From the IMG/VR virus record IMGVR_UViG_3300030104_006883, positions 62,001 to 126,000 of that record: a stretch of DNA of 64,000 bases; one strand, written 5' to 3'. This document shows positions 43,612 through 58,851 of the stretch, piece after piece. Source of the stretch: a virus. The notes under the pieces were generated by a model. It worked only from the letters and a program-made list of their open reading frames with translations. It was not told the DNA's origin and made no database searches. A program made the position numbers and the translations under genes. Each line of letters begins with the position of its first letter. Within the stretch, counting starts at the first letter, position 1.

Positions 43612-43998
43612 ATGAAAATAACAAAATCAAAACTTAGACAAATCATTAAAGAGGAAATAGAAGAAGTGGTATTTGGAAGCAAGATAGGCTTTTCTTTTAA
43701 AAGCCCGCGCCCGCTAACGGACAGCGCTATATTTGGTGAAAAAGAAGAAGAGGTTAGCGAGTCGCTTTACTCGGGCACTGCGATGCCTGAAGATATAGAT
43801 GCAGTAAACGACGCTCTGTATCTGCTTGGCAACGTAGAGAGAACTTTGGAGAATGAAGAGGGCGCACCCGCCAGGAGAGCCCGCAAAGATGTCGCCTCCG
43901 CAGCAGACTTAATTCAGAAGGCCCTGGGGCACATGGAGCAGGGAGAGCTTCAATTTACTGCCATGCGCAGAGCAGCTTTACAGAAGTCGCGTAGCTAG
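43612..43998 (+). CDS. Small protein with possible capsid-targeting N-terminal helix
   Basis: A 128-residue protein. It opens with MKITKSKLRQIIKEEIEEVV, an amphipathic basic/acidic helix that recurs, with variation, at the start of the 55119, 56115 and 56348 proteins near the prohead genes. Potential gp21-type cleavage sites (I/L-x-E) follow immediately (IKE, IEE). In T4, internal head proteins carry an N-terminal capsid-targeting sequence of about 10-20 residues that is cut off by gp21. The rest is a polar region and a helical C-terminus (ADLIQKALGHMEQGELQFTA). It is possibly a packaged internal protein, but located in the DNA-metabolism block. No known domain was recognised. Confidence 0.6.
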   Translation: MKITKSKLRQIIKEEIEEVVFGSKIGFSFKSPRPLTDSAIFGEKEEEVSESLYSGTAMPEDIDAVNDALYLLGNVERTLENEEGAPARRARKDVASAADLIQKALGHMEQGELQFTAMRRAALQKSRS

Positions 43999-44003
43999 TT
44001 TTC

Positions 44004-44032
44004 TTGACATTAGAACCTTGGTGCTGTATACT
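44004..44032 (+). promoter_or_regulatory. Sigma70-type promoter for the Mre11-Rad50 fusion gene
   Basis: TTGACA (44004-44009), a 17-base spacer and TATACT (44027-44032), five of six matches to TATAAT, in the 60-base gap before the fusion gene. Expected transcription start is about 44039-44041, with GGAGG (44050-44054) and ATG 44059 following. This is the clearest host-type promoter in the window and suggests early expression of the nuclease independent of the late genes upstream. Confidence 0.8.
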
Positions 44033-44058
44033 CTAGCCAGCACAATCATGGAGGTTGT

Positions 44059-47000
44059 ATGAGGTTCGCTCATTTTGGGGATACCCACATTAGAAATCTG
44101 AAATACCACAAAGAGTATCGAGTGGTATTTGAGCAGATGTATAAGAAGCTTCGAAGGTTGAAGCCTGACGCAATTATTCATTGCGGCGACATCGCCCACA
44201 CAAAGACACAGATCTCTCCCGAGTTTGTACAGATGTGCTCGGACTTTTTTAAAAATCTTGCGGATATCGCACCGACCTATATTATATTAGGCAATCATGA
44301 CGGCAACCTCAAGAATAGTAGTAGGTTGGACTCTATTAGTCCGATTGTGGAGTCTCTTAATCATCCTAGCTTGCACTTGCTTAGAGAGGCACAAGAAGTA
44401 GTTCTTGATAAAAACTTTGCTTTAAATGCTCTTTCTATTTTCGATGAGGACAATTGGGTAGAGCCTAGTGATCTAGACAGAGTAAATATCGCTCTTTATC
44501 ACGGCTGTATTAAAGGGGCAATGACTGATATCAATTTTCTATTGGATCACGGAGATCATCCAATAGATATCTTTCAAGGATTTGATTTTGCTTTTCTTGG
44601 TGACATACATAGAACTAATCAAATCCTAGACAGCGAGGGCAGAGTTAGGTACTGCGGCAGCACAGTGCAGCAGAATTTTGCAGAATCAGACGACAAGGGG
44701 TTTTTGATTTGGGACATCGACAATAAGCAAGACTTTAAAGTTAAACATTACGCTTTTAACAATCCAAAGCCATTTGTTACAATTGAGTTAGACAGCAAGG
44801 GCAAGATTGCCAGCGATTTAGAAATCCCAGCAGACGCTAGAGTCAGGCTCATTGCCAGTTATAGCTTAACACTAGAGCAGATGCGCCGTGCGATTGATGT
44901 TTGTAAAACTAGGTTTAAGCCTGAGTCTGTTACTTTTGTTAACAAGGGAGACGTAGAGCCCTCTGCGGAAGAAGTGACCGACTGTATTGTTCATGAAGAT
45001 CTAAGAGATATCTCTGTTCAAGAAGAAATTATCGAAGAGTTTTTAAAAGACTATCAAACTGAGCCGGAGACATTAAAAGAGGTTTTCTCTCTAAACAAGA
45101 GATATAATGTAGCTGCGGAGCAGTCCGAAGAAGTTGCCAGAAATGTTAAGTGGAAGTTGAAAAAATTCAAATGGGACAATCTGTTTAATTACGGGACAAA
45201 GAACGAGATAAACTTCACCAGGCTTAGAGGACTTGTGGGAATATTCGGCAAAAACTATTCGGGCAAATCAAGCATTGTTGATGGGTTACTCTATACGGTA
45301 TTCAACACTACTTCTAAAAATAATAGAAAAAATCTTAATGTTATAAACCAAAATGAAGACTCTTGCTATGGCAGAGTAGAGATAGACATTGGCAAAGATA
45401 CCTATACGATTATAAGAGAATCGGAGAAGTATAGAAAGAAGCTTCGTGGCAAAGAGACTGTCGAGGCGAAAACCGATGTGTCTTTTAGTAAAAAGAACAA
45501 GACAACTCGTGAAGTGACTGAGATGAATGGGATTGATAGGAATGAAACAGATAAGAATATTCGTCGTGCATTTGGCGATATAGACGAGTTCTTGTTAACT
45601 TCGCTGGCATCCCAACTGGGATCTTTGTCTTTCATAGGGGAAGGTTCTACGAAGAGGAAAGAAATTTTGGCTAAGTTCTTAGACCTTGATATTTTCGACC
45701 AGAAGTTTAAGCTGGCGAAAGAGGACTCTTCTGATATAAAGGGCGCTCTAAACAAACTGAAAGATCACGATTTTATTGCAGAAATATCCGAGGCAACAAC
45801 TAACTTAGCTTACAGTGAAGTAGAATTAGATAGGAAAAAACAACAAGTAGAAGATTTAAAGACCCATATCGCTGCTTTAAGCGAGTCTCTAAAGGAGATA
45901 AATGATAAGCTGGACACTTCTCAACAAGAAGTTCTTAATATAGACGATATAACCAACGAACTACAGACGGTAGAATCTAGAATAGATTCCGTGAAGAAGG
46001 ATAATGTTGGTCTAGAGGAATCTATCGATAAAGACAAAGAGATACTCTTGAAAATAGAAGAGCATCTACAGGAGATTGATATTGATTCATATGAAGAGAG
46101 GCTAGAAGAAATAGACGCTAAGACTAGGGAACTCTCTTCTCTTGAAAAAGAAATAGAACTGCTGGAACAAAAGGAGACAACTGAGTCCAACAAAATCAAG
46201 CTGTTGTCGGAAGTACCATGTGGATCCGAGTTTGCCAGTTGCAAGTTTATTAAAGACGCGTATGGCGCAAAAGAAAAGCTTGAGACAATACAGGTTCAAA
46301 TGAATGATCTTTCTATTTCCAAGAAAGGCATAAGTCAGGAAGTGGACAGTTTAGATCCGGATGTGGTCAAATCATATTTGAAGAAATATAATGATTTGAT
46401 TAAGAAGAGGAGAGAGGTGACTGAACGGTCTAGCGACAATAAGGTTTTGCTAGAAAAAAATAAATCTTCTCTTCTAAATGCGATGAGGTCTCACAATGAT
46501 CTTCAAGAAAAGAAAAAGAGATATGAAGACAACGAAGATTCAATAAAGCAGCTTGAATTGATTATTGAAGCAAAAAATAAGCTAGTATCCAACATTGAAC
46601 TAAGCGACGAAGACCTGTCGTCCGCGCAGGAAGAGCTATTGTTGCTGTTTAAAAATCATGGATCTCTAGAGCAGAAGGTGAAAAATCTAGAGGAAAGGCA
46701 GCAAGAGCTTGAGGAGCTACAAAAAGAATACACCTCTTATGAGTTGTATTTGAAGTGCATGCACAGTAATGGAATATCTTATGATATAATCAAAAAAAGA
46801 TTGCCAATTATTAATGAAGAGGTTTCAAAAATTTTAGCAAATATTGTTAACTTTGAAGTGTTCTTTGAAGAGGATGGAAGAAAATTAGATATCATGATAA
46901 AACATCCAAAGTTTGAACCGCGACCCATCGAGATGGGTTCGGGAGCAGAGAAGACCATAGCCTCTATGGCAATAAGGTTAGCCCTGATAAAAATTAGCAC

Positions 47001-47211
47001 TTTACCTGTTGGCGATGTATTTATTCTCGATGAGCCCGCAACGTCGCTCGATGAAGAACATATGGAAGGATTTGTTAGATTGCTAGAGATGGTTAAGACT
47101 GAATTTAAAACAGTTCTACTTATTTCTCATCTTGATACTTTAAAAGATGTCGTAGACAAACAGATAATTATTGAAAAGGATTATGATGGGTATGCTCATG
47201 CAAGCTTTTAG
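44059..47211 (+). CDS. Fused recombination nuclease: Mre11/SbcD (gp47) plus Rad50/SbcC (gp46) in one chain
   Basis: A 1050-residue protein. Residues 1-340 are a calcineurin-type phosphoesterase: GDTH (7-10), GDIAH (43-47), GNHD (78-81), YHGC near 147 and GDIHR near 181, the metal ligands of Mre11. From about 370 the Rad50 ATPase begins: Walker A GKNYSGKSS (397-405), long coiled coils (about 560-700 and 735-900), and Walker B FILDEPATSLD (about 988-998) preceded by an MGSGAEKT signature. The hinge has C721 and C728 (PCGSEFASCKF), eight positions rather than the CxxC of a zinc hook. In T4 these are two genes (47, 46) whose complex resects DNA ends for recombination-dependent replication and host DNA breakdown. 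Here one continuous frame encodes both. Confidence 0.88.
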   Translation: MRFAHFGDTHIRNLKYHKEYRVVFEQMYKKLRRLKPDAIIHCGDIAHTKTQISPEFVQMCSDFFKNLADIAPTYIILGNHDGNLKNSSRLDSISPIVESLNHPSLHLLREAQEVVLDKNFALNALSIFDEDNWVEPSDLDRVNIALYHGCIKGAMTDINFLLDHGDHPIDIFQGFDFAFLGDIHRTNQILDSEGRVRYCGSTVQQNFAESDDKGFLIWDIDNKQDFKVKHYAFNNPKPFVTIELDSKGKIASDLEIPADARVRLIASYSLTLEQMRRAIDVCKTRFKPESVTFVNKGDVEPSAEEVTDCIVHEDLRDISVQEEIIEEFLKDYQTEPETLKEVFSLNKRYNVAAEQSEEVARNVKWKLKKFKWDNLFNYGTKNEINFTRLRGLVGIFGKNYSGKSSIVDGLLYTVFNTTSKNNRKNLNVINQNEDSCYGRVEIDIGKDTYTIIRESEKYRKKLRGKETVEAKTDVSFSKKNKTTREVTEMNGIDRNETDKNIRRAFGDIDEFLLTSLASQLGSLSFIGEGSTKRKEILAKFLDLDIFDQKFKLAKEDSSDIKGALNKLKDHDFIAEISEATTNLAYSEVELDRKKQQVEDLKTHIAALSESLKEINDKLDTSQQEVLNIDDITNELQTVESRIDSVKKDNVGLEESIDKDKEILLKIEEHLQEIDIDSYEERLEEIDAKTRELSSLEKEIELLEQKETTESNKIKLLSEVPCGSEFASCKFIKDAYGAKEKLETIQVQMNDLSISKKGISQEVDSLDPDVVKSYLKKYNDLIKKRREVTERSSDNKVLLEKNKSSLLNAMRSHNDLQEKKKRYEDNEDSIKQLELIIEAKNKLVSNIELSDEDLSSAQEELLLLFKNHGSLEQKVKNLEERQQELEELQKEYTSYELYLKCMHSNGISYDIIKKRLPIINEEVSKILANIVNFEVFFEEDGRKLDIMIKHPKFEPRPIEMGSGAEKTIASMAIRLALIKISTLPVGDVFILDEPATSLDEEHMEGFVRLLEMVKTEFKTVLLISHLDTLKDVVDKQIIIEKDYDGYAHASF

Positions 47212-47220
47212 GAGAAATGA

Positions 47221-47871
47221 ATGAAGTTTTTTATTGCCGTGTGGCAACAAATAAAAAAAAGACTAGCTAAGATATTTTATAAACCTATTTTTTATCATTG
47301 GCTGGCTTGGAATAAATTAAGTCACCTAGTACACTACTCGAAGTATAAGAACGTAGAATTACAGAGAGATCAGCCGCTAACCAAGGTGCAAAGTGTGTTA
47401 GAGATGCTGGAGTGGAAGGTGGATGCTTGGAGAGACTTGTTTGATATTCACGGTACTCCAAACTATGTACAGCACATCATAAATGAGAGCCGTGACAACA
47501 TCTATAAGCACGGGCCAAGAATTAAAATTAAAAGTGGCCAAGTTGACCTGCCGCTGGGTCCTGATGAGTTTTCCATATGGGCGTGCAATGTTTTGGATAA
47601 AAACTACTACCCTCGTTTGTTTGTGTTTACTTGGATGGGCGGAGACGGAGAACTCGTTAGCCGCGTGATTTGTCTATGCAGGATGTCAGACGGAAGAATG
47701 TTCCATATAGGCAACTGGGGGACATCGAGACCGTTTGTTGATCTACGCCAGTTGACACTGGACATACTTAAGCGGACTGCGGCGAGAGAGGCGATAGGCT
47801 GGGCAATGCTCGATAAAAACTTGAAGATTCTAAAAATTGGAAAAGAGATACCAAGTGGAAGTGTCAACTAA
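47221..47871 (+). CDS. Unknown protein in probable lysis cassette; possible inactive transglutaminase-like fold
   Basis: A 216-residue protein with a GGAG site 6 bases upstream. The N-terminal 40 residues are basic and aromatic (RLAKIFYKPIFYHWLAWNKL), perhaps membrane-contacting. The middle, with VDAWRDLFDIHGTPNYVQ, LPLGPDEFSIWA and then LFVFTWMGGDGEL...VICLCRMSDGRMFHI, looks like bacterial transglutaminase-like cysteine peptidases, whose core reads GDCDDFAxWA and then GHxV. But the catalytic Cys is replaced (GPDEF) and the His after the glycine is absent. It sits just before a holin-like gene and a spanin-like pair, so it could be the lysis enzyme of an unfamiliar type or a non-enzymatic binding protein. 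The function is not established. Confidence 0.55.
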   Translation: MKFFIAVWQQIKKRLAKIFYKPIFYHWLAWNKLSHLVHYSKYKNVELQRDQPLTKVQSVLEMLEWKVDAWRDLFDIHGTPNYVQHIINESRDNIYKHGPRIKIKSGQVDLPLGPDEFSIWACNVLDKNYYPRLFVFTWMGGDGELVSRVICLCRMSDGRMFHIGNWGTSRPFVDLRQLTLDILKRTAAREAIGWAMLDKNLKILKIGKEIPSGSVN

Positions 47872-47893
47872 TTAAGGAAGGAGGCTTACAATT

Positions 47894-48091
47894 ATGAGTG
47901 AACAGACAAAAGAAATATTAGATAGAATGATAGCAAAGGTGACTAGTAGGAAGCTATTGGTTTGGTTAACTGCGACAGGTCTTGCCTTGACAGGCAATGT
48001 AACATCGGAAGATTGGGTTGCTGTCGCACTTGTTTACATTGGCTCGGAGGCGCTAGTAGACATAGCATCGACTTGGAGGCACGGCAAGTGA
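47894..48091 (+). CDS. Small membrane protein, holin-like
   Basis: A 65-residue protein behind a strong AAGGAGG site. A short charged N-terminus with TSRK leads into one hydrophobic segment (LLVWLTATGLALTG), a break with NVTSEDW, and a second (VAVALVYIGSEALVDIA), ending in a basic WRHGK tail. Size, two membrane segments and basic C-terminus are typical of class II holins, and the following genes encode coiled-coil membrane proteins, so a lysis role is likely. Similar small proteins occur in many phages without tested function. GTGA overlap couples it to the next gene. Confidence 0.6.
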   Translation: MSEQTKEILDRMIAKVTSRKLLVWLTATGLALTGNVTSEDWVAVALVYIGSEALVDIASTWRHGK

Positions 48092-48492
48092 CGTGGTTTG
48101 TGGCCAAGCATGCTTTGAAAAAAGCATGGCTTTGGACTAAATCATATTGGTATATCCCTGCTGTTTTAGCGTATACGCTAGTGCTGTTATTTGTTTTTAG
48201 AAGAGACAGTCAAGAGGCGGGCGAGCTTCTTGGTACGACTATAGACAGCTATGAAAAACAGCTAGCAGTTTTAAATAAAACCCATCAAGACGAAATCGAC
48301 AAAAGAGACGCTGCGCTACAGAAGTATCAACAGGTGTTGAGCGATCTAGAGAATAAGTATGCAGAAGAAGAGAAGAAGTTGTCTGAGTCTAAAAAAAGAA
48401 CTTTGAAGAGAATAGTTGAAAAGTATCATGATGATACGGAAGGGCTAGCTAAAGAGATAAGTAAAAAATTTGGAGCTACTTATGTACCATAA
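48088..48492 (+). CDS. Membrane-anchored coiled-coil protein, i-spanin-like
   Basis: A 134-residue protein. The frame is open upstream to 47962, but GTG 48088 is preferred: GGAGG lies 8 bases before it and it overlaps the holin-like stop as GTGA. A single N-terminal membrane segment (WYIPAVLAYTLVLLFVF, about residues 21-37) is followed by a long charged coiled coil (about 50-125, for example QQVLSDLENKYAEEEKKL). This layout is that of an inner-membrane spanin (Rz-like), which spans the periplasm and fuses the two membranes with a partner at the end of lysis. The next gene overlaps its 3' end by 11 bases. It could instead be any tethered coiled-coil protein. Confidence 0.6.
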   Translation: MTWFVAKHALKKAWLWTKSYWYIPAVLAYTLVLLFVFRRDSQEAGELLGTTIDSYEKQLAVLNKTHQDEIDKRDAALQKYQQVLSDLENKYAEEEKKLSESKKRTLKRIVEKYHDDTEGLAKEISKKFGATYVP

Positions 48493-48946
48493 TTTTAAAA
48501 CAAAAATAATTTCACTATTTATGAGCGCTCTTCTTTTGCTAACACCCTCTGGAGTGTTAGCTACTGAGACGGGGAAGGTCGCTAGCCTTAAAGAGGGACA
48601 GCCTGCGCCTTATAGCGGAGTACTGTTCGATGAAACATTCGCGGCGAGACTAATCGCAGAAGAGGAGCACAAACAAATTGAATGTAATCTCAAAATTAAA
48701 TTCGAGCTTGAAAAGATGGAAGCAAAACATGCTTTGGAAATGGGAAATGTTAAAGCTACGCTTGACTCGCTTAGGTCGCAACATAGTGCGCTTATTAACA
48801 TTAAAGAAGATGAGATAAAGAGGCTACACACTCTTGCTTTAAAAAATCCAAACGATAACGCAAATTGGTGGTTTGGTGGAGGAGTTGCTGTTGGTATTAT
48901 TACTTCTATTATTATTTTTTATGCTGCTGTTGAGGTCCAAAAATGA
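48482..48946 (+). CDS. Exported coiled-coil protein with signal peptide and C-terminal membrane segment, possible spanin partner
   Basis: A 154-residue protein started at ATG 48482, with GGAG 6 bases upstream inside the previous gene. The N-terminus (KTKIISLFMSALLLLTPSGVLA) is a standard signal peptide, with likely cleavage after VLA near residue 27. There is no lipobox cysteine. A coiled coil (about 55-110) leads to a C-terminal hydrophobic segment WWFGGGVAVGIITSIIIFYAA and a short basic end. With the preceding gene it makes a pair of overlapping, oppositely anchored coiled-coil proteins. That resembles a two-component spanin but with a membrane-anchored rather than lipoprotein partner. A lysis role is inferred from context. 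Confidence 0.6.
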   Translation: MYHNFKTKIISLFMSALLLLTPSGVLATETGKVASLKEGQPAPYSGVLFDETFAARLIAEEEHKQIECNLKIKFELEKMEAKHALEMGNVKATLDSLRSQHSALINIKEDEIKRLHTLALKNPNDNANWWFGGGVAVGIITSIIIFYAAVEVQK

Positions 48947-49335
48947 GTGATGACCTGGACTATATTGTGAGGTTAGAAAAGGCCATAAGATTAAAATATG
49001 GTGAACAAGCAATTAAGAATCCAAAGTCTGGTTGGGACACAGAAAAAGAAAAAGAATATTTACAACAACTTAAAGCTTTGGCAATAAAAGAAAATAAAAT
49101 TCAAGAAAATAAAGATAAGGTAGAGGTTGACGGGTTTTTCGTACCTAAAAAACTACTTACTAGAGACGCACAAAGAAATTGTCCGGTTTGTAAAAAATAT
49201 TCATTCAAAATAAAAGACGATGTTTATATGGCTAAGTATGATGCTTGCCATAGTTGTTTTATTGAGTACATAGAAGGAAGAGAAGATAGATGGGAAACAG
49301 GCTGGCGACCCGAAAAAATCCAAGGAGAACAATAG
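48943..49335 (+). CDS. Zinc-finger protein of unknown function
   Basis: A 130-residue protein coupled to the previous gene by ATGA. A helical, charged N-terminal half is followed by a four-cysteine zinc site, C80/C83 (NCPVC) and C102/C105 (ACHSC), with a beta hairpin between (YSFKIKDDVYMAKYD) and a conserved-looking end, FIEYIEGREDRWETGWRP. I associate this C-terminal block with small proteins of marine T4-like phages beside terminase genes, but its role is unknown to me. The position between the lysis genes and the terminase suggests a late protein, perhaps DNA- or protein-binding. Confidence 0.68.
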   Translation: MSDDLDYIVRLEKAIRLKYGEQAIKNPKSGWDTEKEKEYLQQLKALAIKENKIQENKDKVEVDGFFVPKKLLTRDAQRNCPVCKKYSFKIKDDVYMAKYDACHSCFIEYIEGREDRWETGWRPEKIQGEQ

Positions 49336-49866
49336 ATGTCACAGAAATCGTTAGATATAATTAGAGGAGTCGCACAGGCGGCAGCTAATGCCTATGATGG
49401 AGCCTTCGATTCGAATGGAGATCCGATATCTTTAGGTTTAAAAAGAGAAGAGGGGCACCCAGTGCTAAGTTCTAGAGACATGGACGGGTTCAAGGTTAAG
49501 ATGAGTGGGAACCACCTAATGGTTAACTACCAAGCCGAGATCAAGCTCAGGGACGTTCACAATACTAAGTTTGAAGAAGAACTAGAGCAAACTGTTGCTG
49601 ATATTGCTAGCTGGCTAAAGAAAGAATATAAGAAAGTAACAGGCGATACTCTTTCCTTAACGCCGGTAGGAGAAGTTGACGCAATTGTTCAAAGCACTTC
49701 AAAAGTAAGAGTCTTTGTTAACGCTACAAAGAAGTTTAAAGTTGGTGGCCTTGAAGGGGTTGAGGATAAGCTAGAGCCAAGCGAGGAACTAGTGCAGAAA
49801 AATTTTAAGGACTTTTTAAACCAAGGTGGATTAGGCTCAAGAGACGCTAAAAACGTTACAAATTAA
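49336..49866 (+). CDS. Conserved phage protein of unknown function upstream of terminase
   Basis: A 176-residue protein starting right after the previous stop with an AAGGAG site. It shows an alpha/beta mix: SQKSLDIIRGVAQAAANAYDG helix, several strands (FKVKMSGNHLMVNYQAEI), a helix (ELEQTVADIASWLKKEY) and strands again. In T4 the gene before the large terminase is the small terminase gp16, but this protein is not mostly helical as those are, so I do not call it that. It may be a virion or morphogenesis protein. No catalytic pattern is visible. Confidence 0.62.
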   Translation: MSQKSLDIIRGVAQAAANAYDGAFDSNGDPISLGLKREEGHPVLSSRDMDGFKVKMSGNHLMVNYQAEIKLRDVHNTKFEEELEQTVADIASWLKKEYKKVTGDTLSLTPVGEVDAIVQSTSKVRVFVNATKKFKVGGLEGVEDKLEPSEELVQKNFKDFLNQGGLGSRDAKNVTN

Positions 49867-49874
49867 GAGCCAGC

Positions 49875-51449
49875 ATGACACACGAGCTAACGAAGAAACA
49901 AATAGTTGCTGAGATAGTTAAGGCGGGAAAAGATCCCGTATACTTTATCAACAATTATGCAAAGATATCCCACCCTATGAAGGGTCTCATCCCCTTCAAG
50001 GTTTTTGATTATCAGGAAGATCTCCTTAGAGACTTCAATGATTATAGGTTTAACGTAATCCTAAAGGCTAGACAGCTAGGCATTTCGACGATTACAGCGG
50101 CCTATATTGTATGGTTAATGATGTTTCACAAAGACAAGAATATTCTTGTCATTGCAACTAAGTTTGGCACGGCAGCTAACTTAGTTAAGAAAGTTAAACA
50201 CATGATTAAAAACCTTCCGCCATGGATAATGATTACTGATATTGCGGTTGATAATAGAACCTCCTTTGAATTGTCTAATGGTTCACAAATCAAGGCTTCA
50301 TCTACAAGTAGCGATGCTGGCCGATCGGAGGCATTGTCTCTTTTGGTAATAGACGAGGCTGCACATGTTGAAGGGCTGGAAGAACTTTGGACTGGTTTAT
50401 ACCCTACTCTTTCAACCGGCGGTCGATGTATAGCATTATCGACACCAAACGGAGTTGGGAATTGGTTTCACCAGACTTTTATCGAGGCGGAAGAAAAGAA
50501 AAATAAATTCCATTCCGTAACACTACCCTGGGATGTGCATCCTGATAGAAATGACAATTGGTTTCATGAAGAAACTAAAAATATGTCCCCACGACAGATC
50601 GCTCAAGAGTTAATGTGTAACTTTAACATGTCGGGAGAAACAGTTTTTGATGCACAAGACATGGCCTTAATACATGACAGAGTTTGTGAGCCAAAATATA
50701 GAACAGGCTTCGACAGAAATATCTGGATATGGGAAGAGTTCGATGAATCCCAGCAATACTTGATATCGGCAGACGTGGCTCGTGGAGATGGAAGAGATCA
50801 CTCTGCCTTCCACATTTTTAAAATTGAAACGATGGAAATTGTTGCAGAGTATCGGGGCAAGCCTACCCCTGACATCTTTGCCAATGTTCTTTTTAATGTT
50901 GGCAAAGAATATGGAAATTGTCTGCTGGCAGTAGAAAATAACTCTGTTGGGTGGACTGTGATAACTAAGCTACAAGAAATGGCCTATCCTAATCTTTATT
51001 ACGCAAGAAAGTCTAGCCATGAGTTTGTTGACGCCACTGTTGCGGAGTCTTCTAGAAACACGATCGGCGGCTTTACGATGTCCAGAACTACTAGGCCGCT
51101 TGTTATTGCTAAGTTTGAGGAATTCATAAGGAATAAACTAATTAAAATAAACTCTAATAGGTTGTATAATGAAATGAAGACGTTTGTGTGGCAAAACGGA
51201 AGAGCCCAAGCTATGAAAGGATTCAATGATGATTTAATAATGGCTTGTGCGATTGGATGTTGGATAAGAGACTCTGTTTTTGTTACAAATGTTAGAGAGG
51301 GTGAATACCAAAAAGCATTTTTAAGTGCGATGACTAGAGCAGATACTAAAATGAATACGACAATTCCTGGCATGATTGGACATAAACCTATCAAAGAAGA
51401 CACTGCTAAGGAAGAGTATCAAAAATTTGGCTGGATCTTGAAGGGATAA
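49875..51449 (+). CDS. 17: Terminase large subunit (gp17)
   Basis: A 524-residue two-domain packaging motor. The ATPase has the variant Walker A KARQLGIST (residues 64-72), Walker B LLVIDEAAH (156-164, D160/E161) and coupling motif ALSTPNG (187-193). The RNase H-like nuclease has Asp300 (ISADVARGDGRD), Glu354 (AVENNS) and Asp452/Asp453 (GFNDDLIMA). It cuts concatemeric DNA and pumps it into the prohead through the portal encoded next. It is shorter than T4 gp17 (610) because the extra N-terminal and hinge segments of T4 are lacking. A convincing small subunit is not adjacent. All catalytic residues are present. Confidence 0.95.
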   Translation: MTHELTKKQIVAEIVKAGKDPVYFINNYAKISHPMKGLIPFKVFDYQEDLLRDFNDYRFNVILKARQLGISTITAAYIVWLMMFHKDKNILVIATKFGTAANLVKKVKHMIKNLPPWIMITDIAVDNRTSFELSNGSQIKASSTSSDAGRSEALSLLVIDEAAHVEGLEELWTGLYPTLSTGGRCIALSTPNGVGNWFHQTFIEAEEKKNKFHSVTLPWDVHPDRNDNWFHEETKNMSPRQIAQELMCNFNMSGETVFDAQDMALIHDRVCEPKYRTGFDRNIWIWEEFDESQQYLISADVARGDGRDHSAFHIFKIETMEIVAEYRGKPTPDIFANVLFNVGKEYGNCLLAVENNSVGWTVITKLQEMAYPNLYYARKSSHEFVDATVAESSRNTIGGFTMSRTTRPLVIAKFEEFIRNKLIKINSNRLYNEMKTFVWQNGRAQAMKGFNDDLIMACAIGCWIRDSVFVTNVREGEYQKAFLSAMTRADTKMNTTIPGMIGHKPIKEDTAKEEYQKFGWILKG

Positions 51450-51452
51450 GAC

Positions 51453-53420
51453 ATGGTTACGAAAAACACAAAAAATAATAATCCGAGAAACGCAGCCAGT
51501 GAGTTATTTAAAAGACTCACAAGGCTTTTGTCTGGTCCTGTTGTGGATAGGAGAAGACAAGCGCCAAGAAGAAATAAAAGAAGACAGCTAGATAAGTACA
51601 AGTTCACCTCAGCCTCTGGGCAGCAGTTTAAGAAGGCTAGTGTTAATCCGTATGAATCCCTCCAGTTAGACTTTATGGCCACCCAAAGTAGGCTGGATAG
51701 ATATGTGGACTTTGATCAAATGGAATATACACCGGAGATCGCGTCAGCTTTAGATATATATGCTGATGAGATGACAACATCTAATACGTTCCATCCGATG
51801 CTTAGAATCAAAACCCATAATGAAGAGATTAAAGGGATCTTAAGCACGCTATATAATGATGTGTTAAACATAGAGTTTAGTCTGTTCGGATGGTGTAGAA
51901 CCATGTGTAAGTACGGCGACTTCTTCCTCTATCTGGATCTTGACGAGAAGGTTGGGATTAAGAATACCATAGCGCTGCCGGTTGGTGAGATAGAAAGGCT
52001 AGAAGGGGAAGACAAAACCAACCCAAATTATGTACAGTTTCAGTGGAACTCTGGGGGCATGACTTTTGAGAATTGGCAAATTTGTCATTTTAGAATTTTA
52101 GGTAATGATAAGTTTACTCCGTATGGGACTAGCGTTCTTGATCCTGCGAGAAGAATCTGGCGGCAATTAATTTTGTTAGAAGATGCCATGATGGCTTACA
52201 GGATTGTTAGATCTCCCGAAAGAAGAGTTTTTTATATCGACGTTGGTAGCATCGCACCGCAGGATATTGAGCAGTACATGCAAAAAGTAATGACTCAAAT
52301 GAAGAGAAACCAGCTTGTAGATTCTAACACTGGTCGAGTTGACCTTAGATATAATCCACTTAGCACCGAAGAAGATTACTTTATTCCGGTAAGAGGTGAT
52401 ACTTCTTCCAAAATTGAGACGTTGCCTGGTGGCACCTACACTGGCGACATAGACGACGTAAAGTACCTGAGAGATAAACTTTTCTCTGCTTTAAAAATTC
52501 CCGCGTCTTATTTGTCAAATTCAGACGAGGGGTCCGGGGAAGACAAAACAACTCTAGCTCAAAAGGATATTCGCTTTGCTAGAACTATCCAAAGACTTCA
52601 GAGGTCTGTGATATCTGAACTAGAAAAACTAGGTATTATTCATCTGTATACGCTTGGCTATAGAGGGTCGGATTTAATATCTTTTGAATTACAGCTAAAC
52701 AACCCCTCTAAGATCGCAGAACTACAAGAGCTTGAGCAGTGGAGAACAAAGTTCGATGTAGCTAACGGAGCAACGGATGGGTATTTTAGCAAGAGGTGGA
52801 TATCCGAACATCTGTTTGGACTGGCAGAAGAAGAGCTTACTAGAATGCAAAGAGAAATGTTCTTTGATAAGAAATTTGAAGCTGCTCTTGAAGTTGCCTC
52901 ACAAGAGGTGGCTGAGCAGGGCGGCGGACTAGAGGGTCTGGGCGACGCCGGGGGAGACCTGGGCGGAGCGTTCGGCGGAGCAGGAGACGCCATGGAGGAT
53001 ATTCTTGGAGGCGAGGAAGGAATAGAAGACGAGGTAGATGCTCCGGCTGAAGAAGCAGACCAAGGGGCACTACTCGCTGAGCCGCCCGCCGAAGAAGCTC
53101 CTGCCAAAAGAGATGATGATGAAAAGATTTCTTCCAAAGGCAAAGTATATATCAAGAGGGGCCACAAGGGCAGCGGAGAAGTTAATCAGAGAAGCATGGC
53201 CGGTAGATCTAACACATGGAAATCGTCCGGAGGAAGCCGACTAGCTAGTTCTTCTAAGTCCAACCTATTTAAAGGACATGGAGACTTGTTGGGATTGGGG
53301 AGACTTTCTGAAGGTTTAGAAGCTACTTATATTAAAGAAGAGAATAAAATATTTGAAACTACTGAAGATATAAAGCAACTTTTAGAAGGACTTTCATCTA
53401 AGAAGGAATCGGAAGTATAA
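51453..53420 (+). CDS. 20: Portal vertex protein (gp20) with long acidic/basic C-terminal tail
   Basis: A 655-residue protein against 524 in T4. The core (about 55-480) has the gp20 hallmarks: YVDFDQMEYTPEIASALDIY, SLFGWCRTMCKYGDFFLYLD, RIVRSPERRVFYIDVG, and LKIPASYL near the channel. After about residue 480 comes an added tail: Gly/Ala/Glu-rich low-complexity sequence (GLGDAGGDLGGAFGGAGDA), an acidic Pro stretch and then a Lys/Ser/Gly basic segment. The tail may lie inside the head or contact core proteins. The portal forms the dodecameric ring at the packaging vertex that initiates prohead assembly. A TAATG overlap joins it to the next gene. Confidence 0.93.
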   Translation: MVTKNTKNNNPRNAASELFKRLTRLLSGPVVDRRRQAPRRNKRRQLDKYKFTSASGQQFKKASVNPYESLQLDFMATQSRLDRYVDFDQMEYTPEIASALDIYADEMTTSNTFHPMLRIKTHNEEIKGILSTLYNDVLNIEFSLFGWCRTMCKYGDFFLYLDLDEKVGIKNTIALPVGEIERLEGEDKTNPNYVQFQWNSGGMTFENWQICHFRILGNDKFTPYGTSVLDPARRIWRQLILLEDAMMAYRIVRSPERRVFYIDVGSIAPQDIEQYMQKVMTQMKRNQLVDSNTGRVDLRYNPLSTEEDYFIPVRGDTSSKIETLPGGTYTGDIDDVKYLRDKLFSALKIPASYLSNSDEGSGEDKTTLAQKDIRFARTIQRLQRSVISELEKLGIIHLYTLGYRGSDLISFELQLNNPSKIAELQELEQWRTKFDVANGATDGYFSKRWISEHLFGLAEEELTRMQREMFFDKKFEAALEVASQEVAEQGGGLEGLGDAGGDLGGAFGGAGDAMEDILGGEEGIEDEVDAPAEEADQGALLAEPPAEEAPAKRDDDEKISSKGKVYIKRGHKGSGEVNQRSMAGRSNTWKSSGGSRLASSSKSNLFKGHGDLLGLGRLSEGLEATYIKEENKIFETTEDIKQLLEGLSSKKESEV

Positions 53421-54250
53421 TGAAATTGAGACATAATAAAAAAAGAAATACCGCATTTATTTTCGAAGCTCTTGTCAAAGAGATGACCAAGAGCGTTATG
53501 AAGAAGAACAGCGACAAGAAGAGAAAGATTGCTGGTATTATAAAAGAACATTTTCGAAGCGGGTCTATTTTAGGTCAAGAGCTAAGACTGTACCAGTCCG
53601 TGATCGAAGAAGGATCTTTTGATTCAATTAATACTGCCGAGAGAGTATTGCAGGAAACGAAAAGACAATACAGCTTTTTAGACAAAGAGCAGATCTTTAA
53701 TGAACAAAGTAAGGTTATAAACAAGATTAACAAAATATTATCAAAGGATGTTTTTACCAATTTTGTTCCAAATTATAAGAGCTTAGCCTCAGCATATCAA
53801 ATATTTAATCAAGAAATGCCCCCAAAAAACAGGGTTTTGTTAGAGAACAAGTTGCTAGAGGGAATTGTTAGCACCACTAAGGCTGTTGCTGATAAGTTTC
53901 CTTCCGATACATTAGTTCTTAAGAATTTTATAAAGAAGTTTAACTCGGAGTATTCCGAAAAATTATTTGAAGAGCAAAAGAATTTATTAAACAATTACAT
54001 CACTTCTTTTGTCGACAATGGTATAGATTTTAAAATATTTCTAAATGAGGAACTCGGAAGGTTAAAGCAGGAGATAAGAAACGCTAGAGATCTCGAAGAA
54101 ATCGAGACAAGCCCGGAGATGCTGGATAAGACAGAAAAGGTGCTTGAATTTGTTGAGTCCTTTAGAGAAAAGAAAATAGACGATAAGTCTATAGAAAAGA
54201 TACTAAAAATACAAAAATTAGTTAGAGAGCTACAAACAGATGGCAATTAA
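53420..54250 (+). CDS. Helical protein next to portal, probable prohead core/assembly protein
   Basis: A 276-residue, almost fully helical, Lys/Glu-rich protein. It opens with KLRHNKKRNTAFIFEALVKE, a basic segment followed by an L-x-E site (VKE after AL) of the kind cut by gp21 proteases. In T4 the genes between portal and protease (67, 68) encode prohead core components; the location here is equivalent. Long amphipathic helices (for example RLKQEIRNARDLEEIE) suit a core or chaperone role. It resembles proteins I associate with this site in marine T4-like phages, without a known function. It overlaps the next gene by 11 bases. Confidence 0.62.
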   Translation: MKLRHNKKRNTAFIFEALVKEMTKSVMKKNSDKKRKIAGIIKEHFRSGSILGQELRLYQSVIEEGSFDSINTAERVLQETKRQYSFLDKEQIFNEQSKVINKINKILSKDVFTNFVPNYKSLASAYQIFNQEMPPKNRVLLENKLLEGIVSTTKAVADKFPSDTLVLKNFIKKFNSEYSEKLFEEQKNLLNNYITSFVDNGIDFKIFLNEELGRLKQEIRNARDLEEIETSPEMLDKTEKVLEFVESFREKKIDDKSIEKILKIQKLVRELQTDGN

Positions 54251-54809
54251 TATTACAATAAATAAAGACGTGGGGCTCCTAGCTGCCCCAGAAGTCCCTA
54301 CACAGCCGGAAAAGAAGCCAGTTGTTGCGACAAGAGAATTAAAGGTAAGAAAGACCCTTTCGGGTGACTTGATTATTTTCGATCATAGAGACATAGATAT
54401 CGTAGTGATGCCTGATAAGAACAAGATCATGTCTTTTTCCAAAGAATCCTATACAGAGGAGTCTTACCATTCGGCAGACAGGCTTTTTAAATATTTGACG
54501 GACAAGGGTATTGTGCAGAGAAGCAGTGTTCAGGGTGGGAATGTCTATTCTTCTCTAGAGGCAAAGATCGAGGAAACAAAAGACTATAATACTACGCAGC
54601 TTGCACTATTCACCATTGCAAACTTTATAGAAGAAGAGCGTCCCTATCTAGAATTTGAGGATGATGTAGAAGAAGCTTACGAAGATAGGATGACCGATCC
54701 GTCCCCAGAGGAGTCTAGCGAATATGACCCTCGACGCCACTCAGACAAGAAGGGGTCTGTAAGGCCAGAGCTTCGCCCGTATGGATTGTATACTAACTAC
54801 GTATACTAG
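54240..54809 (+). CDS. Unknown head-region protein
   Basis: A 189-residue protein with a short disordered N-terminus (about 1-30, Pro-rich), a compact strand set (LKVRKTLSGDLIIFDHRDID, then IVVMPDKNKIMSF), a helical middle and an acidic, Pro/Arg-containing tail. No motif for catalysis or metal binding is seen. The start ATG is inside the previous gene (11-base overlap). By position it belongs to the portal-protease assembly block and is probably a minor head or assembly factor; I cannot assign a family. Confidence 0.6.
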   Translation: MAINITINKDVGLLAAPEVPTQPEKKPVVATRELKVRKTLSGDLIIFDHRDIDIVVMPDKNKIMSFSKESYTEESYHSADRLFKYLTDKGIVQRSSVQGGNVYSSLEAKIEETKDYNTTQLALFTIANFIEEERPYLEFEDDVEEAYEDRMTDPSPEESSEYDPRRHSDKKGSVRPELRPYGLYTNYVY

Positions 54810-54819
54810 GTTGGTTTCT

Positions 54820-55122
54820 ATGGACATTCTAATTTTTATTCTTTGCGCTTATGGCATGACGCAGATCCTCGTCTATGGGAGCATATTCAATTTAATAAGG
54901 CCCCAGACAGGGAGGATGGGCGAATTATTTAAGTGCCCTATGTGTGTAGGCTTCTGGGTTGGTGTTTTTCTTTTCGGTATTAACAAGTACACGGAACTAT
55001 TTAATTTTGAATATAATTTTGTAAATATACTGCTGCTTGGATGCTTGAGTTCCGGAAGCTCTTACATCCTTAATATGCTCTTTGGAGATAACGGTTTAAA
55101 ATTGGAAAACAGATTGAGATGA
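54820..55122 (+). CDS. Small membrane protein with CPMC motif, DUF1360-like
   Basis: A 100-residue protein started at ATG 54820, 10 bases after the previous stop; the frame is open upstream to 54781, but that would run through the neighbour. Three hydrophobic segments are visible (ILIFILCAYGMTQILVYG; VGFWVGVFLFGI; FVNILLLGCLSSGSSYIL). The KCPMCVGFWVG element (C39/C42) between the first two recalls DUF1360-type membrane proteins, which carry a conserved CxxCxxFW at a membrane border. Its presence in a head-gene operon is unexpected; a role at the host membrane is likely but unknown. It ends in an ATGA overlap with 55119. Confidence 0.6.
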   Translation: MDILIFILCAYGMTQILVYGSIFNLIRPQTGRMGELFKCPMCVGFWVGVFLFGINKYTELFNFEYNFVNILLLGCLSSGSSYILNMLFGDNGLKLENRLR

Positions 55123-55424
55123 CAATAACGAAAGAAAATCTTAAAAAATTTATCTTAGAGCAAGTACAGGGTCTTTTAGACCCAGATGCAGCGGACGACA
55201 ATGCAGAGAAACCGGACAGTTCACAATTAAAGCAAATAAAAAGAGGGGCAAGTACGGGGGGAAGGATGCCGGTAGAAGATTATGTTGAAGCACTAAGTGC
55301 CATACTGGCCTCTGAAAAAGTAAGTCCTCAAGTTAGGTTAGAGGCTTTTAGAAAAGTTTTTGGGCAAGGCCCAGGCGCGAGGATACACGCCGAAATAACA
55401 AAAAGAATGAAGGAGCAGCCATGA
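55119..55424 (+). CDS. Small protein with possible capsid-targeting N-terminal helix
   Basis: A 101-residue protein. The first residues TITKENLKKFILEQVQG match the pattern of the 43612 protein (KITKSKLRQIIKEEIEE): I-T-K, then a Leu/Lys/Ile amphipathic helix and a Glu, with an I-L-E candidate protease site. After a polar linker with a Lys/Gly patch there is a helical C-terminus (DYVEALSAILASEKVSPQVR). The location directly before the prohead protease supports a head-internal or core protein cleaved during maturation. Translation is coupled to the previous gene by ATGA. No known domain. Confidence 0.6.
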   Translation: MTITKENLKKFILEQVQGLLDPDAADDNAEKPDSSQLKQIKRGASTGGRMPVEDYVEALSAILASEKVSPQVRLEAFRKVFGQGPGARIHAEITKRMKEQP

Positions 55425-55471
55425 GAAGAAGAAACATACCTGAAGTAAGGCGATGTTGTAAGGGATCTTAG
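55421..55471 (+). CDS. Possible 16-residue micro-ORF before the protease
   Basis: ATG 55421 overlaps the previous stop (ATGA), has AAGGAG 5 bases upstream, and encodes the very basic peptide MRRRNIPEVRRCCKGS before TAG, 2 bases ahead of the protease ATG. The strong ribosome site may serve mainly to pass ribosomes on to the protease gene. Whether the peptide matters is unknown. Confidence 0.35.
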   Translation: MRRRNIPEVRRCCKGS

Positions 55472-55473
55472 CT

Positions 55474-56109
55474 ATGTCAAAGAAGCTTTTACAAGAGTAT
55501 TTTCAGTTGTGCCCTGACGGCGTTTGCGCTGTTGAAACATTAACTGAAACTGAAATTAAAAACATGGACAACGGTTCTGTTTATTTGGTAGGTGTATGCC
55601 AAAAAGCTGGTACTAAGAACGGCAATGGAAGAGTATACAAAAAGGAAACTTTGCAAAGAGAAGTAGAGGCCTATCAAAGAGCAATCCGTGAGAAACGAGC
55701 ATTGGGTGAGCTTGATCATCCTGATGACAGTGTTATCAATTTAAAAAACGCATCTCATTTAGTAACAAAGATGTGGTGGAAGGGTGATGATGTCATGGGC
55801 AAGATTGAGGTTCTCGACACTCCGTCTGGTAACGTTTTAAAAGCGTTGTTAAACTCTGGCGTGAAGCTGGGCATCTCTTCTAGAGGTCTTGGTTCCGTAA
55901 GTGAGTCCAACGGAGTAACGATGGTGGAGGATGATTTCCAACTTATCTGTTTTGATATTGTTTCGGAGCCTTCTACCCCTGGTGCTTATCTAAATCCAAC
56001 CATGAGCGACACTAAGTCGGCGGATTTAAATTTGTATATAAATGAGCAAAAAGACAAATCTAAAAGGGACATACTTAATGAAACTTTAGATGATATATTG
56101 GGAGACTAG
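55474..56109 (+). CDS. 21: Prohead core protease (gp21, serine peptidase S77)
   Basis: A 211-residue protein almost the size of T4 gp21 (212). The catalytic His is His82 in LGELDHPDD, and the Ser is in LGISSRGLGS (Ser135/136); FDIVSEPSTPGA (160-171) is the conserved C-terminal core strand. Family members are made as zymogens, assemble in the core and, once heads are complete, cut scaffold, core and capsid proteins after L/I-x-E. Candidate cleavage sites are present in the scaffold and capsid proteins downstream. The last 35 residues are likely a self-cleaved tail. It heads the run of small head proteins up to the scaffold. Confidence 0.92.
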   Translation: MSKKLLQEYFQLCPDGVCAVETLTETEIKNMDNGSVYLVGVCQKAGTKNGNGRVYKKETLQREVEAYQRAIREKRALGELDHPDDSVINLKNASHLVTKMWWKGDDVMGKIEVLDTPSGNVLKALLNSGVKLGISSRGLGSVSESNGVTMVEDDFQLICFDIVSEPSTPGAYLNPTMSDTKSADLNLYINEQKDKSKRDILNETLDDILGD

Positions 56110-56114
56110 ACATA

Positions 56115-56351
56115 GTGAAAGAATCTATTAATGAAATAATAAGTGAAGAGTTAGATCAATTGGAAGAGATTGACATGTTCGGCAAGAAAGCGTCAGCGAA
56201 CTATGACCGAGCCATGAAGTCCCACCATGATGATCTCGCCGCTATTCACAACCAGCTAAAAGATGCCTTGGGAGATCCCGGCAGGCTGCAACAGGTTGCT
56301 AGCGAGATAGTAAAAAAGTTAGCGCTTAAATTCAGAACGACGGATAGATGA
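56115..56351 (+). CDS. Small head-region protein with possible targeting helix
   Basis: A 78-residue protein started at GTG 56115, five bases after the protease stop. It opens with KESINEIISEELDQLEEID, a short acidic helix with several I/L-x-E steps (ISE, LEE) that could be protease sites. The rest is helical (HDDLAAIHNQLKDALGD, QQVASEIVKKLALKF). It overlaps the next gene by ATGA. The context, between the protease and the next helix-bearing protein, suggests a core or internal head protein. No known family. Confidence 0.55.
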   Translation: MKESINEIISEELDQLEEIDMFGKKASANYDRAMKSHHDDLAAIHNQLKDALGDPGRLQQVASEIVKKLALKFRTTDR

Positions 56352-56752
56352 TGAAGAAAAGTGAATTAAAAAATATTTTAAAGCCATTAGTAAAAGAGTG
56401 TATTAAAGAGTGTCTTTTTGAAGACGGAGTTTTGTCTGGTATTATTAAGGAAGTAACTCAAGGACTTTCGAGCAAGACTGTTGTGGAATCTAATCACCAA
56501 CAGGTTGAGATTTCTGATTCACGACAAAAGATGGCCGAAGAAGAGTATGAAAGACAAAGACAAGAAAGAATAAAGAGGCTTAATGAGAGCGCTTCAAAGC
56601 AATTCGGAGTCGATATATTTGAAGGAACACGGCCAGCAGCGCCAGACACAAGTGGCCAAGGAGCGTTGTCTGGGGTGGACGCAGGAGACAAGGGCGTCGA
56701 CATTGACGGGATCGTTGGCCTTGCTAAGGGCAAGTGGAAGCATTTAATCTAG
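56348..56752 (+). CDS. Small head-region protein with possible targeting helix
   Basis: A 134-residue protein. The N-terminal helix KKSELKNILKPLVKECIKEC is followed by a region with the I-I-K-E and L-F-E steps expected of gp21-type cleavage. The middle is a highly charged helix (EEEYERQRQERIKRLNESAS). The C-terminus is Gly/Asp-rich with GVDIDGIVGLAKGKW, a compact end that may bind another head protein. Two possible starts (ATG 56348, 56351) lie next to each other, the first overlapping the previous stop. It is probably a prohead core or internal protein; no function is known. Confidence 0.58.
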   Translation: MMKKSELKNILKPLVKECIKECLFEDGVLSGIIKEVTQGLSSKTVVESNHQQVEISDSRQKMAEEEYERQRQERIKRLNESASKQFGVDIFEGTRPAAPDTSGQGALSGVDAGDKGVDIDGIVGLAKGKWKHLI

Positions 56753-56761
56753 GAGTTAATA

Positions 56762-56977
56762 ATGGGAAGCCCCATACATGTTGAGGTTACGTTAGATGAA
56801 GTCAAAGGCAACGTAACTAGAATGATTAAAAGATTTATAAAAAAAGCGAAGAAGATGCGCATTGTTGAAGAATACAAAGAAAGAATGTATTTTACCAAGC
56901 CATCTAAGAAGCGAAGGCTTGCTAAGAAGCGTAAAAAAGATAATGCTAGAAAAGCAGAAAAGAAACGAAAGAACTAA
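56762..56977 (+). CDS. rpsU: Ribosomal protein bS21 homologue
   Basis: A 71-residue, very basic protein with a GGAG site. It follows bS21 throughout: an N-terminal strand (HVEVTLDEVKGN), the helix with RMIKRFIKKAKKMRIVEEYK, the marker FTKPSKKRR, and a Lys/Arg-rich C-terminal helix, matching the length of bacterial bS21 (about 70). bS21 joins the 30S platform near the anti-Shine-Dalgarno and is needed for initiation on structured messages. Phage-borne copies are known, notably in pelagiphages, and may enter host ribosomes to favour phage late messages. It is encoded in the head operon just before the 57000 protein. All conserved parts are present. Confidence 0.85.
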   Translation: MGSPIHVEVTLDEVKGNVTRMIKRFIKKAKKMRIVEEYKERMYFTKPSKKRRLAKKRKKDNARKAEKKRKN

Positions 56978-57592: not shown

Positions 57593-57624
57593 TTGTGACT
57601 TAAAATATTTTAGGAGTGTTTACT

Positions 57625-58851
57625 ATGTCATCTATGTTGGAACAAGCAGTCATTGATGCTGCTGCTTTAAAAGAGGTAGCGCTAAAAAATGCTGAAGCTG
57701 CTGTAGTTGAGAAGTATTCGTCTGAGGTCAAAGAGGCCATGCGAACTTTGCTAGAGCAAGAAGATGACATGGACCTAGATGATCTCGACACAGACCTCAC
57801 AGGGGAAGATGACATGGAGGCTGAAGAAGACTCTGTTGTAGATAGTGTGCCGCTAGCCGCTACTGATGGGGAGGATATGTGCCCATGCCCTGACGAGGAA
57901 GAAGTTATCGTATTAGATTTCGACGATCTTGCAAAGCAGATGGACGATGAAGAATCTATGCCTGGAGAGATGATAGATGCGGAAGACACCGCTGAAGAGC
58001 TTCTTGACGATGAAGGTGAGTTGGATCTAGATGACATAGATCTACAAGAAAGCATTAAGGGCATTCTTGGCCTAGACGAGGCTGGGGCAAAGCCGGACTT
58101 CTTAGATCTCGATAAAGATGGAGACAAAGAAGAGTCAATGAAAGACGCCGCAGAAGACGCAAAAGAAAAACTAGATGAGGACGCTGATGACGACGAAGAT
58201 CAAGATGATCTTGATGAGGAAATCGATCTTTCTGAAGAACAACTAGAAGAGATTGTCGGTGCCCTGGAAGAGAAGCTCACTGTTGATATCGATGATGTAT
58301 TAACTGGGTGGGCTGGAAGACCTCAGTCGGACCAAAAGCTCGCTGCTGAAAAGATTCTTGCTCATATGCAAGATGATGAGGTTAAGGAAGAGGAGGGGCT
58401 TTCAAAAGAAGCAGTAGAGCAGGTCGAAGAATTAATGGAAGCCAAGCGAGAGCTTGAAGAAAAAATTTCCAACATTACAGAACACAATACAAAGCTAACC
58501 ACAGCAGTGGTGGCTTTAAAAGAGCATGTAGAGGAAGTGAACGCAGCTAATGCCAAACTCCTTTACACAAATCGCGTTTTAACTAGCGACTCCTTGAATG
58601 AGCGACAAAAGAATAAAATTGTCGAAGCTATTTCAAACGCGAATACTGTAGAAGAAGCAAAGGTAATCTTTGAGACACTTCAGAGCGCAGTGGGCAGCAC
58701 CGATAAGAAACAGCCAAAATCACTGAGCGAAGCCGTTGATAGATCTTCTACTCACGTTATGTCTAGCAGAAATTCATCGAAAAGACGTAACAGCGAAGTA
58801 GATCCAGCCGTAACACGCTGGCAACTATTAGCAGGACTAAAACAAAAATAA
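57625..58851 (+). CDS. 22: Prohead core scaffold protein (gp22-like)
   Basis: A 408-residue protein. ATG 57625 is chosen because TAGGAG is 8 bases upstream; a GTG at 57616 lies inside that site. The first 40 residues contain an L-x-E step (LKE in AAALKEVAL). The middle 200 residues are extremely acidic and Asp/Glu-rich, with DFLDLDKDGDKEES resembling a calcium-binding loop. The C-terminal part is a coiled coil (about 260-340, EAKRELEEKISNITEHNTKL), ending in TRWQLLAGLKQK. Length, acidity, coiled coil and position directly before the capsid gene match T4 gp22 (269 residues), the scaffold that is degraded by gp21 before packaging. It is longer than T4's. Confidence 0.85.
   Translation: MSSMLEQAVIDAAALKEVALKNAEAAVVEKYSSEVKEAMRTLLEQEDDMDLDDLDTDLTGEDDMEAEEDSVVDSVPLAATDGEDMCPCPDEEEVIVLDFDDLAKQMDDEESMPGEMIDAEDTAEELLDDEGELDLDDIDLQESIKGILGLDEAGAKPDFLDLDKDGDKEESMKDAAEDAKEKLDEDADDDEDQDDLDEEIDLSEEQLEEIVGALEEKLTVDIDDVLTGWAGRPQSDQKLAAEKILAHMQDDEVKEEEGLSKEAVEQVEELMEAKRELEEKISNITEHNTKLTTAVVALKEHVEEVNAANAKLLYTNRVLTSDSLNERQKNKIVEAISNANTVEEAKVIFETLQSAVGSTDKKQPKSLSEAVDRSSTHVMSSRNSSKRRNSEVDPAVTRWQLLAGLKQK

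Follow-up and report, generated by a model that had tools for sequence, protein, structure and literature searches.

Two N-terminal tags in a clade of marine T4-like phages, probable capsid-targeting propeptides on packaged cargo

Do small proteins encoded around the prohead protease of a marine phage carry a signal that directs them into the head? The stretch analyzed here (the window; 64,000 bases, G000:C1:62001-126000) belongs to a 185,927-base virus record of a T4-like marine phage, whose first 50 bases are repeated near the opposite end. Among annotated phages, its nearest relatives are T4-like and infect cyanobacteria or Flavobacterium, with protease identity below 55%, and IMG/VR holds hundreds of relatives, many of them nearer than the annotated T4-like phages. 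A first-pass annotation had proposed that four proteins, starting at 43612, 55119, 56115 and 56348, share an amphipathic N-terminal helix ending in I/L-x-E, cut as in T4 by a gp21-type protease, and that three of them sit beside that protease. All four open reading frames and their quoted N-termini are present in the window, and the protease flanked by three of them is real: 55474-56109 matched Pfam Peptidase_S77 (PF03420, 1.1e-32) and the head maturation protease family phrog_207 (2.8e-60), and its matches in T4-like phages are annotated as prohead protease.

Gene order at the head locus is T4-like, running (window positions) from a terminase-like gene at 49875 and a portal-like gene at 51453, both assigned from sequence and position, through small genes to the S77 protease at 55474, and on to 56115, 56348, a bS21-like gene at 56762, a gene at 57000, a scaffold-like gene at 57616 and the major capsid protein (MCP) gene at 58872. 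Gene starts are those called in this analysis. The features that bear on the question are as follows (arrows mark predicted cut positions; type A is one of the two tags defined below):

43612-43998, plus strand: protein of 128 aa whose first ~22 residues (43612-43677) form a canonical type A tag, type A PWM score 44.5 bits
55119-55424, plus strand: protein of 101 aa, its type A tag diverged (MTITKENLKKFILE↓Q); homologues in close relatives
55474-56109, plus strand: S77 prohead protease (T4 gp21 type; PF03420, phrog_207), the presumed cutting enzyme
56115-56351, plus strand: 78-aa protein with a GTG start and a degenerate type A tag, judged from its homologues L016 and L019
56348-56752, plus strand: 133/134-aa conserved helical protein, a probable prohead core protein or scaffold partner (81 loci, alignment, model, C-terminal motif)
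57616-58851, plus strand: scaffold-like protein at the T4 gp22 position, between protease and MCP, kept in 11/11 genomes, with C-terminus RWQLLAGLKQK containing the C-terminal motif
58872-60662, plus strand: gp23-like MCP, by tblastn to annotated T4-like MCPs
58872-59048, plus strand: predicted propeptide of the MCP (residues 1-59), with LLKE↓SS at its end (LL[KR]E↓[ASQ] kept in 11 genomes)

The bS21-like ribosomal protein gene between protease and scaffold (window 56762-56977; PF01165 at 4.2e-5, slightly below the cut-off) has homologues in 70 relative loci, and Mel-JY01 carries RpsU at the same place. A small membrane-like protein between portal and protease (window 54781-55122) had matches in 88 relative loci. 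Farther upstream, and extending into the start of the window, genome positions 40559-66200 appear by eye to hold a long glycosyltransferase/nucleotide-sugar gene island, followed by tail genes.

Two tags recurred at the N-termini of proteins with non-homologous bodies. Type A has the consensus M-K-I-T-K-x-x-L-K-x-I-I-K-E-E-[LI]-x-x-V-L-x-E, exemplified by 43612, and type B the consensus M-K-L-L-[LF]-E-N-W-R-K-[FY]-[LI]-N-E, also given as MKLLLENWRKFLNE. Sharing was measured as the best ungapped BLOSUM62 score over residues 2-25 in 109,379 non-homologous protein pairs within 10 genomes; 143 pairs scored 45 or more, against none at residues 31-54, none in shuffled sequences and 2 at C-termini. 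We rebuilt the PWMs using one N-terminus per body family; the seeds came from 45 families for type A and 21 for type B in the 10 genomes, mutually non-homologous in their bodies. At a threshold of 14, the type A PWM recovered 54 N-termini in the 10 genomes, with 8 matches elsewhere in proteins and 2 in shuffled proteins. The type B PWM recovered 24-26 N-termini.

Each genome had 3-15 strong carriers by PWM. The genome-wide search for the N-terminal pattern, which the first-pass annotation had suggested, yielded at least 13 PWM carriers in the phage's own genome (7 type A and 6 type B) plus several diverged ones, most of them absent from its list of four. These carriers, and the type B carriers among them, lie mostly outside the window. 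The 13 strong carriers start at the following positions:

genome 11926, 17130, 20926, 21762, 26537, 27493, 28611, 28957, 29308, 105612 (window 43612), 164219, 164558 and 164835

By eye, diverged members were also recognized at genome 12256, 20100, 23215 and 142552 and at window 55119 and 56115, and the ORF at genome 24819 contains a clean internal type B start, MKLLLESWKRFLKEE. In IMG/VR, exact DNA patterns, which force the residues named in them, gathered at least 306 carriers in at least 213 body clusters. When the bare tag peptides of both types were compared with INPHARED by tblastn, nothing useful came back, possibly owing to low-complexity filtering.

Both tags place a potential cleavage site at a fixed distance from the start. 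T4 gp21 cleaves after L/I-x-E (PMC9026906), and the MCP of 11/11 genomes retains ...MARLLENQA..LL[KR]E↓[ASQ]... where T4 gp23 reads FLTE65↓A. Type B ends in [LI]-[NK]-E14. Type A has I12-K-E14 plus a second [LI]xE site at fixed spacing, with its glutamate at residue 22 in 48 and at residue 21 in 21 of 135 independent bodies (69/135 together), compared with at most 11/135 at any other position in residues 18-45; the E22 peak was also seen in the set without pattern-forced residues. Cleavage of type A after residue 21/22 has at least as much support as cleavage after IIKE-14.

Mutagenesis of T4 IPIII has shown that residues 4 and 7 are important for targeting and residues 8 and 10 for processing (PMC9026906). 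In a glutamate-anchored alignment, these positions fall on W8, [FY]11, [LI]12 and E14 of type B, and the spacing of key residues in the T4 capsid-targeting sequence (CTS; MKTYQEFIAE) matches type B by eye. Given that the type B PWM gave no score to the T4 tags, we regard this match as a correspondence and not as proof of homology. The proposal of T4-like peptides cut by a gp21-type protease is well supported by the comparative evidence as a whole. The T4-style signal, however, corresponds to type B, which none of the four listed proteins carries.

The tags also occurred together with the protease. S77 was encoded by 22 of 23 tag-carrying contigs of at least 100 kb, among the matches listed, and was absent from the remaining one, in comparison with 2 of 9 contigs in a small control drawn by random 15-mers (Fisher p 8e-5). 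This control replaced an earlier one based on a signal-peptide pattern, whose contigs were all below 70 kb and had S77 in 0/14 cases. A scan of bacterial and archaeal genomes (257 Gb) for the exact type A pattern hit only 5 contigs, all from MAGs; 2/5 of these MAGs hold an S77 match and 3/5, with short contigs binned into them, do not. Given that T4, Flavobacterium phage immuto and Microcystis phage Mel-JY01 encode S77 and lack even a relaxed type A pattern, we take the tags to be clade-specific.

What the tags are attached to differs between the two types. Type A bodies are short (median 105 aa, vs 195 aa for type B) and nearly devoid of known domains. Among the matches listed, type B bodies included ART-PolyVal, NUDIX, AAA_33, Pkinase, ParB_N, Amidase_2, DUF192 and other domains, deoxyribonucleotidase and polynucleotide kinase PHROGs, and HAD-like starts by motif in 21/142 bodies. 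Within the phage's own genome, the carrier at 17130 is a NUDIX protein (6.5e-13), and the carrier at 28957 had a weak ART-PolyVal match (0.006, below the cut-off). L540, found with 28957 and aligned to it over residues 1-70 at 32%, exceeded the ART-PolyVal cut-off and starts MKKLLTEWRKYLKE↓S; L270, which also has a type B start, exceeded it as well. An AlphaFold model of a type B ART made without an alignment reached pLDDT 40 and was discarded in favor of the Pfam match. Judged by their domain matches, ART-PolyVal and similar predicted cargo domains are compatible with injected effectors.

Related bodies occurred with either tag or with none. Among related 2H-phosphoesterase-like bodies (33% identity, E 3e-13), one phage has the type A version and two have type B, with one member of this group (L286) matching Pfam tRNA_lig_CPD. 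One Nudix homologue, L545, carries a B-like tag of its own (ALNEWKAFLGE↓A); in the Nudix homologues L546-L557 the protein begins essentially with the domain and has no tag. In the 56115 family the type A tag is degenerate or canonical depending on the member. In 8/11 genomes, carriers were neighbors more frequently than expected (p about 0.02 or less). Identical codons among carriers of the same genome were more frequent than expected from 5'-end codon usage (type A, 0.65 vs 0.48; type B, 0.58 vs 0.50), so these copies seem to share DNA ancestry. Given that the 30 nt upstream of carriers were not conserved (about 30% identity), the spread of tags seems to involve coding 5' ends.

Seen against these two tags, the four proteins do not form the single helix class first proposed: 43612 is canonical type A and 55119 and 56115 are diverged type A, but 56348 has a distinct conserved sequence. 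The body of 43612 was matched in the near relative G001 only, with all other matches limited to the N-terminus, and neither 43612 nor 55119 belongs to a Pfam or PHROG family. The N-terminus of 55119 reads MTITKENLKKFILEQ and that of its homologues, found in close relatives only, MKLTEENLKKFILEQ and MRLTKEGLKKIILEQ. Encoded directly before the protease, 55119 may by its sequence and place be either cargo or a core protein, given that this is the T4 gp67/gp68 position. The N-terminus of 56115, MKESINEIISEEL, is degenerate type A, and its homologues L016 and L019 (62-63% identity) open with canonical type A, MKITKEHLKKIVQEEL and MKINKEEITQIVKEEL.

The N-terminus of 56348, MKKSELKNILKPLVKECIKE, is conserved, differs from types A and B and is present in 81 loci, which rules out one signal on all four proteins. 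Many homologues keep LNE↓S, and the predicted structure is helical (residues 3-24 and 27-84; pLDDT 69, pTM 0.24). The 56348 family and the scaffold-like protein (57616-58851) have in common a C-terminal [RK]W[KRQS]x[LMI] motif, which is C-terminal in only 1-3 proteins per genome and occurs in 0.2% of internal windows; it is possibly a shell- or portal-binding tail. Like the genes of the prohead core proteins gp67/gp68, that of 56348 lies between the portal and MCP genes, and relatives conserve it. It is also small and helical and lies beside protease and scaffold, and 55119 has the corresponding gene position; unlike these likenesses, sequence and fold searches gave no match to gp67/gp68, and 56348 itself matched no Pfam family and had no confident hit among PHROGs or viral folds. 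This helical protein with the scaffold's terminal motif is not a tag carrier; it is probably not cargo, and most likely a prohead core protein or scaffold partner.

Taken together, we consider it likely that types A and B are clade-specific N-terminal capsid-targeting propeptides, removed by the protease from packaged and probably injected cargo. This reading draws on the confinement of the tags to N-termini, their unrelated bodies, the S77 association, the L-x-E site of the MCP, the second L-x-E of type A, and tag swaps and absences. The steps that we infer run from docking to ejection: as the prohead is assembled, the short amphipathic tag helix would dock a late protein onto its core, the gp21-type S77 protease would then cut the tag after L/I-x-E, and the freed body would stay inside the head, packed with DNA, probably to be ejected into the next host. 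Type A would be cut after E21/22, possibly E14, on mostly small proteins, and type B after E14, often on enzymes. Against this reading stand the missing PWM score of the T4 tags, the three MAGs and the one large contig in which S77 was not found, and the spread in carrier number between genomes.

Carriers could instead be prohead core or scaffold proteins that are consumed in head assembly, as are T4 gp67/gp68, and do not survive in the virion for ejection. The place of 55119 at the gp67/gp68 position, that of 56115 and 56348 between protease and scaffold, the conserved helical 56348 with the scaffold's C-terminal motif, and the many small type A bodies without known domains would all fit; however, most carriers lie far from head genes and vary between relatives, type B bodies are often enzymes, and most bodies lack the conservation expected of core proteins, so we find this explanation unlikely. 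A further alternative is that the helices address proteins to another site in the cell or particle, such as a membrane, the replication compartment or the tail. The comparative evidence does give a modular N-terminal address without its destination, yet the S77 association, the L/I-x-E at the helix end, the same type of site in the MCP and the way type B corresponds to the T4 tag make a destination other than the head improbable.

The shared 5' ends could also be DNA that is mobile or prone to recombination and plays no part in targeting, as the excess of identical codons within genomes over the 5'-end codon-usage prediction might suggest. Given the unconserved upstream 30 nt, a helix-plus-cleavage residue pattern kept across distant phages, and different tags on homologous bodies, we judge this very improbable. 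Finally, amphipathic, glutamate-rich helices might simply be frequent at protein starts. The I/L-x-E ending, offered originally as evidence, is indeed weak alone, with an [LI]xE ending within residues 8-22 in 24% of non-carrier proteins vs 21% in an equal-size internal window; but the shared sequence lies far above chance, PWM matches concentrate at N-termini, and the 143 vs 0 non-homologous pairs lead us to reject chance as the source of N-terminal sharing for the motif as a whole and to give this explanation negligible weight. Chance may explain part of the resemblance of 56348.

The proposed capsid-targeting propeptides have known counterparts: N-terminal head-targeting peptides have been described in T4 (PMC9026906) and P1 DarB (PMC9024508), and long propeptides in giant phages (PMC5694885). 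As in T4 (IPI, IPII, IPIII and Alt, with gp21), a short N-terminal peptide ending in L/I-x-E sits on unrelated late proteins in genomes encoding a gp21-family S77 protease, and type B shares the aromatic-x-x-[FY]-[LI]-x-E spacing. Unlike T4, which has one signal, these phages have two and 3-15 strong carriers per genome, and the ~22-residue, lysine/isoleucine-rich type A pattern is absent from T4. The N-terminal 30 residues of P1 DarB suffice to direct a reporter into the head, and its authors found no common consensus among Dar proteins (PMC9024508), in contrast to the strong consensus across many proteins here. In giant phages SPN3US and phiKZ, the prohead protease removes N-terminal propeptides after a short Glu-ending motif (PMC5694885); these are mostly longer than 100 residues, compared with 14-22 here. 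ART-PolyVal, kinase and ParB domains also feature in the polyvalent proteins of phages and conjugative elements, for which packaging and injection are predicted (PMC5512222), but those proteins are large and multidomain, whereas the proteins described here are mostly single-domain, each with its own tag; the phrase "N-terminal signal" does not occur in that paper. Our literature search, whose coverage excluded preprints and most subscription journals, found neither motif described, nor a comparably widespread consensus.

Which proteins enter the host with phage DNA is a long-standing problem, solved by virion proteomics for a few cultured phages only. If the tags are packaging signals, the injected effectors of many uncultured marine phages could be read from genomes, candidates for host takeover or anti-defence could be picked among hypothetical genes, and two new short tags would be available for loading proteins into phage heads. 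More tentatively, and with slightly less than even confidence, we propose that a large, mostly uncultured marine T4-like clade may use a head-packaging code with two addresses, in which one tag serves mainly small proteins and the other often enzymes, to load rapidly changing injected effectors (ADP-ribosyltransferases, Nudix proteins, HAD phosphatases, kinases and ParB-like proteins), with tags spread by 5'-end shuffling. Injected effectors would then be listable from sequence alone.

Tag-like stretches were also seen away from protein starts. A 1086-aa protein (genome 12256-15516) has a B-like start, internal B-like stretches (NFHKKWKSKLKE and NFKQLRKFVKE), which had no PWM match, and a kinase-like Gly loop near the C-terminus; it could be a polyprotein cut into several cargo domains. 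C-terminal tag-like copies, for example LKITKEGLMAMIKDELEN, LKRDWQNYLKE and ILFDSWRKYLK, were seen in genome 21762-22385 and 20100-20924 and in large proteins of two other genomes (G002 and G008); T4 Alt is processed at both ends (PMC9026906). Two ClpP-like protease genes were recognized by eye at genome 32324-32974 and 162657-163304, the latter close to the type A carriers clustered at 164 kb and to a GroEL-like gene at 165471.
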